Part shown: piece by piece, positions 37,515-58,364 of the stretch
Position numbering within the stretch: the stretch's first letter is position 1
Layout: every line of letters starts with the position of its first letter
IMG/VR virus record: IMGVR_UViG_3300031758_000036
Location: 21,757 to 85,756 of that record
DNA from: a virus
DNA: 64,000 nucleotides
Direction: 5' to 3' (one strand)
Position numbers and translations under genes: made by a program
Notes under the pieces: model-generated
What the model was told of the DNA's origin: nothing
Seen by the model: only the letters and a program-made list of their open reading frames with translations
Database searches by the model: none

Positions 37515-37716
37515 ATTTCCTGATCCAAATTTCCCTCTAATCGTAACAGAAGAGGAGGATGGCTCGTTTACACTGGAGTGGGATGACCTTCATCCTATTA
37601 CATCTGTTTTCAATAACTATACGGAGCAAGACTTTATCGACATGCTGACCGCTGGAGCAATCGATACCCTACAGGACAATGAAGAATTAGATGCATCAAA
37701 ACAGGTTGAAGACTGA
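37507..37716 (+). CDS. Small acidic protein between terminase subunits
   Basis: 69 residues: FPLIVTEEEDGSFTLEWDDL, then HPITSVFNNYTEQDFIDMLT. This pattern recurs as a conserved hypothetical protein in phages and cyanobacteria. It overlaps the small terminase by eight bases and the large terminase by one. Function unknown. Confidence 0.55.
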   Translation: MNKFPDPNFPLIVTEEEDGSFTLEWDDLHPITSVFNNYTEQDFIDMLTAGAIDTLQDNEELDASKQVED

Positions 37717-40250
37717 TGGCTACTAGAGCTGGTAAAATCTTTCTTGAAAAAGCAGGATCAGACCGCGAAATGGTTCGCGAGCTGCGAAAAGCTAAGACGC
37801 AAAGGAAAGAAGGTGGCCAGCAAATAGTACTGCATCAGTTTATCAAATCGGTATCTCCTAACTATAAATTTTACAAGGTCCACGCAGAATTAACGAAACA
37901 ACTGCAGCGAATCATTGACGGAAAATGCAAGCGGTTAATTATTCAAATTCCACCAAGGACTGGTAAAAGTTTTCTGTCCTCTAAGTTATTTCCAGCAGCA
38001 TATTTACTGGCCCATCCAGATCGATATGCTGGCATCGTCTCCTATAGCGCAGAGCTGGCTGAAGGCTTCTCGCGGTCTGCCAGAGATTACTACAGGCAGG
38101 CTGGAGGGACATTTGACCCATACAAGCAAGCCGTAAACGATTGGGGTACCCAAGGCGGTGGCGGGTTATGGGCGTCGGGTGTTGGAGGCGCTATCACCGG
38201 CCGCTCAGGCCATTTGCTGATCATTGACGACCCTGTCAAGAACAGGGAAGACGCTGACAGCCCAAGGGTGATGGAAAAACTATGGGACTGGTACACATCG
38301 ACTCTTTACACTCGCCTTGAACCAGAAGTCGGATCAATTGTTGTGATTCAATGCATGACCGGTGATACAAATGTAACCATGAGCGATGGTTCTTGCCGCA
38401 GGCTGGATACAATTAGGCCAGGCGATGAAGTCTTGTCATGGAAGAATGGATCTGCTGTTACTAGAACTGTACTGAATCATAAATGTCAGGGAGAGGACGA
38501 TGTATTTGAGATAAGAACCGCGAGTAGTAGGGTGAAGGCGAATGCGAGGCATCCGTTTTTAGTGCAACGCGAAGATGGGGCCCATGAATGGGTCAGGGTT
38601 GAGGATTTACGGATTGGCGATTCCCTGGTGGCGTCATCCCGCCTTGAATTTGACAATCCCGCGCAAGTAACCGAGCAACAGGCTTGGCTTCTTGGTTATA
38701 TGTTTGGAGATGGCTGGATAACCAGTCGAACCGGTACGCGGCTAGATGCCAATGGTAAAAGGTATCCAAGATCAGGATTCGTAACATGTGTTGCATGTCC
38801 CAAACCAGACGAGGAAAGGGAAAAGATTATGACAGCGTTTCAATCGATATGGGGTTTTAGGCCGAAACTGACTCGTTATGGCTACTACAGGACCGAGAGG
38901 CAGGAGCCAGGGAAATGGTTCACTGCTTTTGGGCTTACTGGAACAGCCAAGACCAAGAGGGTGCCATTGTGGATGTACTCTCAGCCTGCTGAGATTCGCC
39001 AAGCCTTTTTATCTGGATATCACGAAGCGGATGGCGCTACATTTAGTACGGGCAAGGCCGCAGGTAGGTATACGTTTGGCTCATGTAACCCAGATCTGAT
39101 CAACGATATTAGACAAATAGCAAGGGGATTGGGATATTCAGTCACGAATATTAGCGTATATGAAAGCATGATACAAGCTCCCAACAGTCCTGCGCCAGTA
39201 TTATCTAAAAATTGCAATTTACAATTCAACCCATGGTCAAAAAACGAATCAGAATTTCGTACTCATAAAATCAGATCAATTAAAAATATTGGGAGGGAAT
39301 TAGTATATGACATTCAAGTCGAGGACACCGAATGTTTCATAGCAGATGGACTAGTGTCTCACAATACTCGCTGGAGCGAAAATGACCTGATTGGCAGGCT
39401 GATTGAGTCTGAAATGAACGTATCCGAAAAAGGCAGAGAAAATTGGACAATACTTGACCTGCCTGCTATATCCGAGGATGCTGGTTCGCGACCGCCACTG
39501 CCAGAGCATTGCGATGTTGTACCTGATTGGCGAGAAGAGTCTGGGCTAGCACTGTGCCCACAGCGATATGGTATAGAAGAATACGAACGCATACGTGAAG
39601 CGATAGGCACCAGGGATTTTGCTGCTTTGTATCAGCAGCGACCAGCACCTGAGGGCGGCAATATGTTTGACCCTAGTTGGTGGCAATACTATGATCACGG
39701 CACTGAGCTGCCGGAGTTCCAAAGGTTAATGCTTAGCGTTGACTGTACTTTTACTAACTCTAGTTCTAGTGACTATGTTGTTGGTAGCGTAGTAGCCCAA
39801 GCCGGCAATCGATTTTATGTAATCGATATGGTCAGGGAGAAAATGGATATCATTGCAACGATATCAATGATATCAAGAATGTATAACAAACATGCACTTA
39901 GCGGCACGATTATTGAACTTGCAGCGTCTGGTTATGCTGCTTATCAAATGCTAAGCAAAAAAGTGCCAGGTTTAATTGGTTTCAAGCCAGAGAAATCAAA
40001 AACAGCTCGCGCTGCTGGTATCGTCCCAATAATCGAAGCAGGTAATGTGTATTTACCAACAAGCGCACCTTGGCTAGATGCCTTTGTGAATGAATTCAGC
40101 CTATTCCCAGCAGCAAAGAACGATGACATCGTCGACTCTGTTGGCATGGCTATTAATTACATGTCTCAAAGATCGGCTCCCGTGATGACAGAAGTTAGCT
40201 GGGGCCGTGGAACAACTTTACCCTATAATTATAATAACAGTGTAATCTAA
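37716..40250 (+). CDS. terL: Terminase large subunit interrupted by an intein
   Basis: 844 residues as translated, 506 after splicing. The ATPase has Walker A PPRTGKS (79-85) and Walker B HLLIIDDP (166-173). The intein starts at Cys213 after GSIVVIQ and ends at Asn550, and the flanking sequence resumes as TRWSENDLIGRL, rejoining the terminase coupling motif (VIQ-TRW..ND). The C-terminal nuclease has LSVDCTFTNSSSSDYVV and KNDDIVDSVGMAI with the expected acidic residues. It powers DNA packaging and cuts the genome. The next gene starts directly after the stop codon. Confidence 0.93.
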   Translation: MATRAGKIFLEKAGSDREMVRELRKAKTQRKEGGQQIVLHQFIKSVSPNYKFYKVHAELTKQLQRIIDGKCKRLIIQIPPRTGKSFLSSKLFPAAYLLAHPDRYAGIVSYSAELAEGFSRSARDYYRQAGGTFDPYKQAVNDWGTQGGGGLWASGVGGAITGRSGHLLIIDDPVKNREDADSPRVMEKLWDWYTSTLYTRLEPEVGSIVVIQCMTGDTNVTMSDGSCRRLDTIRPGDEVLSWKNGSAVTRTVLNHKCQGEDDVFEIRTASSRVKANARHPFLVQREDGAHEWVRVEDLRIGDSLVASSRLEFDNPAQVTEQQAWLLGYMFGDGWITSRTGTRLDANGKRYPRSGFVTCVACPKPDEEREKIMTAFQSIWGFRPKLTRYGYYRTERQEPGKWFTAFGLTGTAKTKRVPLWMYSQPAEIRQAFLSGYHEADGATFSTGKAAGRYTFGSCNPDLINDIRQIARGLGYSVTNISVYESMIQAPNSPAPVLSKNCNLQFNPWSKNESEFRTHKIRSIKNIGRELVYDIQVEDTECFIADGLVSHNTRWSENDLIGRLIESEMNVSEKGRENWTILDLPAISEDAGSRPPLPEHCDVVPDWREESGLALCPQRYGIEEYERIREAIGTRDFAALYQQRPAPEGGNMFDPSWWQYYDHGTELPEFQRLMLSVDCTFTNSSSSDYVVGSVVAQAGNRFYVIDMVREKMDIIATISMISRMYNKHALSGTIIELAASGYAAYQMLSKKVPGLIGFKPEKSKTARAAGIVPIIEAGNVYLPTSAPWLDAFVNEFSLFPAAKNDDIVDSVGMAINYMSQRSAPVMTEVSWGRGTTLPYNYNNSVI
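38352..39365 (+). other. Intein with LAGLIDADG homing endonuclease (338 residues)
   Basis: The insert begins with Cys (CMTGDTNVTMSDGS, block A) and has block B VKANARHPFLV with the conserved His. It ends YDIQVEDTECFIADGLVSHN with the penultimate His and terminal Asn (blocks F and G). The +1 residue is Thr. Two LAGLIDADG-type motifs, LLGYMFGDGWI and FLSGYHEADGATF, mark an endonuclease domain. It should self-splice and home into intein-free terminase genes at the conserved coupling motif. Confidence 0.92.
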
Positions 40251-57409: not shown

Positions 57410-57559
57410 ATGAAACTGGAAAAAACCACGGCCTTCGGCCTGCTCCTAGCTCTGGCTGGACTTTTTATTTATTCTGAGGTCGTCAGGAAAGATCATGAGA
57501 TGCACATGAAGGAACACAAATACCAGGAAATGGTTAAATCAACAAAGGGAATTATCTGA
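57410..57559 (+). CDS. 49-residue membrane protein
   Basis: MKLEKTTAFGLLLALAGLFI, then YSEVVRKDHEMHMKEHKYQE: one N-terminal membrane helix and a charged cytoplasmic-type tail. A type seen among small phage inner-membrane proteins. It precedes the structured RNA candidate by 13 bases. Confidence 0.45.
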   Translation: MKLEKTTAFGLLLALAGLFIYSEVVRKDHEMHMKEHKYQEMVKSTKGII

Positions 57560-57572
57560 TAGCCTATTGAAG

Positions 57573-57732
57573 GCATCTTGCCGTATCGAACGGCTTCTCT
57601 TGGCTATGTGCCAAGCGTGTTCCTTACACCAAGATGCAGTGACCCTCCTGTTTGGGCATCATCCCTGGGAACCATTTTGTTAGCGCCAACAAAATGGTCA
57701 CCGTTTGGGGGCTAGGCCTGGAGGGTGTTTTT
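57573..57732 (+). ncRNA. Candidate structured non-coding RNA ending in a terminator
   Basis: Several helices are exact. P1 pairs GCATCTTG (57573) with CAAGATGC (57630) and encloses P2 (CCGT/ACGG at 57581 and 57590) and P3 (CTTGGC/GCCAAG at 57599 and 57610). P4 pairs ACCCTCC (57642) with GGAGGGT (57720) and encloses P5, an 11-bp stem ACCATTTTGTT (57671) with AACAAAATGGT (57688) around AGCGCC. A T-run (TTTTT, 57728-57732) follows. I see no open reading frame of note. The T-run fits transcription on the plus strand, probably as a short RNA. Confidence 0.6.
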
Positions 57733-57765
57733 ATGTGTTGCCAATAGCCCCTCTTACTTCCCTGA

Positions 57766-57855
57766 CGGAAAGTGCAGGTATCGAACCTGCAATGGCCGGT
57801 CCCAAGGAACCGCCGGGAATTCCACCCGGAACATCTCCATTATACCGAACTTTTC
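57766..57855 (-). tRNA. tRNA-Ser(GGA)-like gene, class II
   Basis: Minus-strand elements: acceptor GAAAAGT with ACTTTCC (one A-C mismatch), T stem GCAGG/CCTGC with TTCGATA, and a long variable arm CGGTTCC/GGGACCG (one G-T pair, loop TTG-type). Discriminator G73 is the serine base. The anticodon region reads CCGGG-TGGAATT-CCCGG. With the T as base 33 the anticodon is GGA (Ser); strict stem counting would give GAA with G33. Class II arm and G73 favour serine. The 3' end of the phosphoesterase gene overlaps its 5' end. Confidence 0.55.
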
Positions 57856-58364
57856 AGTTTGGCACGCACCTCTTCCCATTCGATTGGCCTGTAGTCCGTG
57901 TGTTCTACGCATACGCAGAAATACCTAGGGTCAATATCACCTTGTTCATCCTGCACACGACGGAAATGCAAATGCCCATGAATATTTCCCGTGTAACGCG
58001 TCAAATTACAGGGATGTACCGGTATGTGCGTTAGGATATAGCTATCCAGGTAATGGCAACCCCTGATGTCTCTGAAATATTTTGTATAATCACTGAGCTT
58101 AAATATATCATGATTTCCTCTGATCAGAACTTTATTTCCATTCAATTTTTCTAGGCACTTCAGCCCGCGCCTAGGGATAGCTACATCGCCAAGATGATAA
58201 ACCTTATCGTCGGGGCCAACAACGCTATTCCAGTTGTCAATCAATGCTTCATCCATTTCGGATGCATTGTCCCAAGGTCTAAGCTTGGACCCGTCATCAC
58301 GCAGGAATCGACATACACCAGCGTGGCCGAAATGCGTGTCAGCGGTAAGAAAAGTTTTTGTCAC
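57840..58364 (-). CDS. Calcineurin-like metallophosphoesterase
   Basis: 174 residues from a GTG. The family motifs are all present: FLTADTHFGH (D9, H11), VYHLGDV, LIRGNHD, then THIPVH and GNIHGHLH. Such proteins hydrolyse phosphomonoesters or phosphodiesters, often nucleotides, with two metal ions. In phages they are found near nucleic-acid-processing genes such as tRNA and ligase clusters. The stop overlaps the adjacent tRNA-Ser by 16 bases on the same strand. Confidence 0.85.
   Translation of the reverse strand: MTKTFLTADTHFGHAGVCRFLRDDGSKLRPWDNASEMDEALIDNWNSVVGPDDKVYHLGDVAIPRRGLKCLEKLNGNKVLIRGNHDIFKLSDYTKYFRDIRGCHYLDSYILTHIPVHPCNLTRYTGNIHGHLHFRRVQDEQGDIDPRYFCVCVEHTDYRPIEWEEVRAKLKSSV

Follow-up and report, generated by a model that had tools for sequence, protein, structure and literature searches.

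The stretch of DNA analysed here, a window of 64 kb (64,000 nt), is part of an 85,756-bp IMG/VR virus record. Its source was very likely a cyanophage, as judged from the portal protein, which was 66-67% identical to those of the Synechococcus siphoviruses S-CBS2 and S-CRES1-3. A folded stretch at positions 57573-57732 has a phosphoesterase gene, an HTH protein gene, a DUF3155 gene and HNH genes as neighbours. As the initial annotation had stated, no reading frame accounted for the structure: there were no ORFs longer than 45 aa inside it, and a 109-aa plus-strand frame overlapped it at its end only.

Two other features of the window were recorded. ARAGORN placed a 93-nt tRNA-Phe (GAA) with a long class-II-like variable arm at 57764-57856 on the minus strand; its sole tRNA-type match in Rfam was a weak tRNA-Sec, and 92-94% identity was kept in relatives. 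From visual inspection of its translation, a terminase-like ORF at 37716-40250 (plus strand) seems to contain an intein (CMTGDTNVTMSDGS ... FIADGLVSHN).

The folded stretch and its strand

All the helices listed previously were found in 57573-57732. The outer stem (GCATCTTG/CAAGATGC) encloses two hairpins (GCCG/CGGC and CTTGGC/GCCAAG), and in the second domain the stem ACCCTCC/GGAGGGT encloses ACCATTTTGTT/AACAAAATGGT. A GTGT/ACAC stem, absent from the earlier list, was also present, and a T-run occupies 57728-57732 on the plus strand. The folding energy was compared with that of shuffled sequences, a check that had been set in advance. Both the plus strand (57560-57740, z = -3.3, 0/200) and the minus strand (57571-57727, z = -5.1, 0/200) stood out from the shuffles.

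The structure had been read on the plus strand, and this proved to be wrong. In the alignment of 33 long copies, 38 pair cells were G-U solely on the minus strand and 10 solely on the plus strand, and the consensus energy was lower for minus (-30.5 kcal/mol) than for plus (-21.3 kcal/mol). Model R1, built from the minus-strand alignment of the long (expanded) copies, gave the window copy, itself in the training set, 97.7 bits on minus versus 22.2 bits on plus. The ARAGORN match in the window and the Rfam match in the viral contig L008 were both on minus. We conclude from these comparisons that the functional strand is the minus strand. The 'U-tract' that had been taken as part of the RNA was not conserved in relatives, and on this strand it is an A-run upstream of the RNA. 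A plus-strand terminator or riboswitch was rejected on the G-U counts, consensus energies and model scores.

The features on the minus strand were as follows.

57642-57726, minus: abiF-like RNA, hairpin-expanded, 85 nt (model R1, covariation, Rfam abiF matches in relatives)
57726-57720/57648-57642, minus: abiF-like P1
57718-57716/57657-57655, minus: abiF-like P2, 3 bp
57710-57707/57665-57662, minus: abiF-like P3
57700-57687/57682-57669, minus: abiF-like P4
57654-57650, minus: conserved unpaired CAAAC
57638-57641, minus: 4-nt linker CACU between P1 and G1 of the tRNA-like structure (common to S-CREM1, S-SZBM1 and L008)
57572-57637, minus: tRNA-like cloverleaf with anticodon-like CAU (ARAGORN, covariation in relatives)

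Relation to abiF RNA

No known Rfam family was found within the element of the window, and its copy gave no match to the Rfam abiF model (RF03085, threshold 37 bits) up to E = 10. The relatives supplied the connection. L008 carried a minimal form at the same place, four bases before a tRNA, which scored 55.7 bits, and the Synechococcus phages S-CREM1 (52.2 bits) and S-SRM01 (49.3 bits) were also above the threshold. The expanded relatives in the 50 records scanned scored 16-33 bits, below the threshold. The Rfam model matched such forms end to end and on the same strand, with E-values of 4e-6 (L168 and L127), 2e-5 (L130), 1e-4 (L177) and 2e-4 to 1e-3 (L085, L270 and L087). In the reverse direction, the long-form model recovered the abiF RNAs of S-CREM1, S-SZBM1, S-SRM01 and two Omegavirus mycobacteriophages. 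It also found an abiF RNA in the isolate S-CBS4, just after a phosphoesterase gene, the same order as in the window.

Alignments and pair counts showed that the window copy shares P1, the unpaired A, the 3-bp P2, the CU...GAU ends and the CAAA strand with abiF RNA (for example RCd22). The abiF loop CUCUCAACGAU, closed by P2, was absent; a hairpin stands there instead, between the retained CU and GAU. Similar insertions occur in bacteria. Nine abiF RNAs were found in 299 Pseudomonadota genomes, six of them 25-54 nt upstream of an Abi_2 gene and a seventh (Legionella gratiana) near a broken one. Four of the nine were 48-49 nt long, and their P2 loop contains an apical hairpin, as in the short forms of phages; two of these (L305 and L309) precede intact Abi_2 genes. 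Given that some bacterial abiF RNAs upstream of Abi_2 have an apical hairpin too, a relative of abiF RNA is the best reading of the expanded phage RNA. Its abiF-family identity is well supported by the intermediates, the reciprocal model matches, the similar bacterial insertion and the shared linker.

Other differences from RF03085 were the expansion to 85 nt, the lack of an Abi_2 gene, the lack of a U-tract on its own strand, in which bacterial copies often end, and the tRNA-like structure 4 nt downstream. We termed the window copy abiF-like, and not a member, because it falls under the Rfam threshold and lacks CUCUCAACGAU; with the apical loop replaced by a hairpin, binding to AbiF is not to be assumed. 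An attC-like folded site, a REP element and a GOLLD/HEARO-type RNA had been considered, and were dropped once the abiF homology emerged. The suggestion that the structure was more than a terminator, perhaps a tRNA mimic or a host-factor decoy, was near the mark: the first domain is tRNA-like and the second resembles an abiF-family antitoxin, the family having been missed.

The abiF-like domain was found in about 60 viral places; pattern scans gave many chance loci, and these were filtered by structure. In the 33 long copies, 94.9% of the cells in the named structure were paired. Covariation, the other check set in advance, was present, with 86 double-change cells versus 29 when shuffled and at most 12 with slid partners, and it was seen in every helix of the abiF domain. 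BLAST of the window element against isolate phages gave nothing convincing because this form is diverged, and BLAST with the minimal form did recover isolate phages. No match to the element was found in S-CBS2, S-CRES1 or PSS2. The exact expanded core occurred five times in 84,980 bacterial and archaeal genomes, none of the matches forming the structure and one being verified as coding sequence.

Tandem arrangement with tRNAs

ARAGORN reported the first domain of the initial annotation as a 66-nt tRNA-Met (CAT) on the minus strand (57572-57637). The abiF-like RNA thus stands four bases before a tRNA-like structure, and the same arrangement was seen in cultured phages. At the end of P1, S-CREM1 reads GGGGGU CACU GCGGAAU and the window GGAGGGU CACU GCAUCUU, the tRNA beginning after CACU in both. 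The CACU linker also precedes tRNA-Ala in S-SZBM1, and in S-SRM01 a tRNA-Arg lies about five bases further on. S-CBS4 reads GAGGGGU CGCUC GCAUCG, followed by an GAAGGUUCAAUUCCUUC arm and CGAUGC, a tRNA-like structure that ARAGORN missed. The tandem occurs in Kyanoviridae as well as in siphoviruses.

Of 65 copies scored by position, 50 had a tRNA-like acceptor no more than one base away from where it was expected. An independent scan with the minimal abiF core matched at least 120 IMG/VR stretches, of which 80 were kept. An ARAGORN tRNA, mostly tRNA-Arg(UCU), started 3-9 nt after P1 in 42 of these, versus 0.7 expected from the local tRNA density; the tandem counts overstate the number of independent events, since related contigs were counted separately. 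Some of the remaining minimal loci had interrupted or degenerate tRNAs by eye.

Several neighbouring observations were made in these scans. In L328, L329, L332, L352 and L388, an intron-like stretch (...AAATTCGGGGAA...) seems to interrupt the anticodon region of the tRNA after the abiF RNA, and ARAGORN misses this tRNA. In the Omegavirus mycobacteriophages Baka and Redno2 (L293 and L294, 1501-1537), abiF RNAs scored 39.7 and 47.5 bits; the nearest tRNA is about 270 bases away and no Abi_2 accompanies them. About 60 related mycobacteriophage records match by BLAST. On a plasmid of Piscirickettsia salmonis that has no Abi_2, an abiF RNA of 54.6 bits (L297:2502-2538) lies close to IS6 transposases and to the gene for a phage terminase small subunit. 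In three contigs with the abiF-like element, glutamine-II riboswitch aptamers above the Rfam threshold adjoin tRNA genes (L101:7960-8015, L131:9823-9875 and L052:5239-5291).

The tRNA-like structure of the window forms a cloverleaf with a 7-bp acceptor, and its T-loop, UUCGAUA, fits UUCRA. On the other hand, position 33 is A rather than U, the D-loop, of 5 nt, is not a normal one, and there was no Rfam tRNA match. The tRNA-like structures of the siphovirus family were degenerate in the same manner, with mostly A at position 33 and D-loops of 3-5 nt. Their acceptor and anticodon stems covary and the T-arm mostly does so too (paired in 95% of cells, with 87 double changes versus 25 after shuffling).

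Without U33, a tRNA is expected to be poor at decoding, while an acceptor plus T-arm can be enough for RNase P; a role of the tRNA-like structure as a processing tag would therefore fit. A rival possibility is that its altered anticodon loop would resist tRNA-cutting defences, as proposed for other phage tRNAs (PMC10264068).

Proposed function and alternatives

In bacteria, abiF RNA is the RNA antitoxin that keeps AbiF/Abi_2 HEPN toxins in check; these act against phages and have been proposed to be related to the ancestor of Cas13. In Clostridioides difficile, RCd22 has abiF motifs, binds AbiF and neutralises it in trans, and its stems are required (PMC12373285). By the logic of this neutralisation, an orphan phage copy would hold the AbiF of the host inactive. 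Abi_2 (PF07751) was found in none of 106 viral and plasmid records, namely the record of the window, 50 others that mostly carry the element, five from phages or plasmids and 50 with minimal abiF RNAs; this absence is provisional, because many of the records are fragments. A home-made Abi_2 profile, which recovered its positive controls, also found none on the fetched loci. No Abi_2 gene adjoins the RNA in the window, as one would in a type III-like AbiF toxin-antitoxin locus. For a cyanophage in which no Abi_2 toxin gene was found, the RNA is a possible decoy against host defence. A tblastn search with AbiF against plasmids gave no cyanobacterium among the matches listed.

On balance, we favour the reading that the stretch is one minus-strand unit, in which an antitoxin-like RNA of the abiF family, bearing an additional apical hairpin, is followed by a linker and a tRNA-like structure, and that it acts as an orphan antitoxin mimic against AbiF/Abi_2. 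The phage would transcribe the unit together with its tRNA genes. RNase P would probably cut where the tRNA-like structure begins and so release an abiF-like RNA whose 3' end is defined by the cut, in place of the U-tract common in bacterial copies. The freed RNA would bind a HEPN RNase toxin of the AbiF/Abi_2 type, belonging to the host or to a competing element, and the bound toxin would stay inactive during infection, so that AbiF-type abortive infection would be blunted. The analysis itself established the structure, the strand, the homology to abiF RNA through intermediates, the tRNA tandem and the absence of Abi_2 from the records searched; from these we infer the transcription, the release by RNase P, the binding to AbiF and the counter-defence function.

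The processing logic resembles that of MALAT1-mascRNA, in which a tRNA-like structure lies 3' of a non-coding RNA and RNase P makes the 3' end of that RNA; this system is eukaryotic and unrelated to the phage unit, and the likeness is limited to the putative processing. For the mimicry, PhiTE offers a parallel: as outlined in PMC3475682, its pseudo-ToxI RNA mimics a bacterial RNA antitoxin and acts against ToxIN, similar to the working proposed here. That RNA is described there as a selected escape mutant directed at another toxin family and belongs to another kind of RNA, whereas the present element is ancient and widespread.

Other explanations were weighed. The abiF-like domain might have been recruited as a leader that protects or tunes the processing of phage tRNAs, with no AbiF partner. 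The constant 4-nt spacing to the tRNA, the lack of Abi_2 in the same records and the loss of the consensus loop in the expanded form would agree with this. On the other hand, the unpaired residues conserved in abiF (A after P1, CU, GAU and CAAA) were kept, which a plain leader would not need, and some viral abiF RNAs, as in Omegavirus, lie away from tRNAs. We consider such a leader rather unlikely.

Less probable still is a complete toxin-antitoxin pair, in which the RNA controls a phage-encoded HEPN/Abi-like protein that Pfam Abi_2 misses because of its divergence. A toxin partner is the rule for abiF RNAs, and Abi_2 proteins are diverse. However, the neighbours, from the phosphoesterase to the HNH genes, gave no Abi match in Pfam or PADLOC, and no common partner gene was found beside the tandem in Kyanoviridae.

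The orphan state, with the toxin gene not found in the records searched, might also suggest a decaying remnant or a hitch-hiking piece without function. This is very improbable, as the compensatory changes in all abiF-domain helices and the fixed linkers across unrelated phages indicate continuing selection. It is hardly credible that the element works on the plus strand, as a regulatory RNA or as a terminator for the small plus-strand gene at 57413-57559: the plus strand also folds and TTTTT follows P1 on it, but the wobble counts, consensus energies, model scores and Rfam and ARAGORN matches point to minus, and the T-run is not conserved in relatives.

The favoured reading, that of an orphan antitoxin mimic, may extend beyond this locus. 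More tentatively, orphan abiF-type RNAs in tandem with tRNAs, freed by RNase P and disarming AbiF/Abi_2 HEPN toxins, the proposed source of Cas13, could form a widespread class of phage counter-defence RNA; in the lineage studied, the tRNA would have decayed to a dedicated processing tag and the apical hairpin expanded.

A 2023 paper annotated an abiF RNA in the cyanophage S-CREM1 but gave no mechanism for it (PMC9964418), and a 2025 review repeats this (PMC12197685). That RNA likewise lies in a phage tRNA cluster, with the CACU linker followed by a tRNA; unlike the window copy, it is the minimal 37-nt form and adjoins an intact tRNA-Gly. The tandem and a counter-defence role were not discussed (PMC9964418). 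In the literature outside subscription papers, nothing was found on the tandem with tRNAs, on the hairpin-expanded form in viruses or on its spread among them, and our priority is not certain.

The tandem is present in four cultured phages (S-CREM1, S-SZBM1, S-CBS4 and S-SRM01), and Synechococcus CB0101 is host to three of these, so that the proposal can be tested directly. If it is true, orphan abiF-like RNAs in phage tRNA clusters would be a ready counter-measure against AbiF, and some of these clusters would gain a role in defence beyond codon supply.
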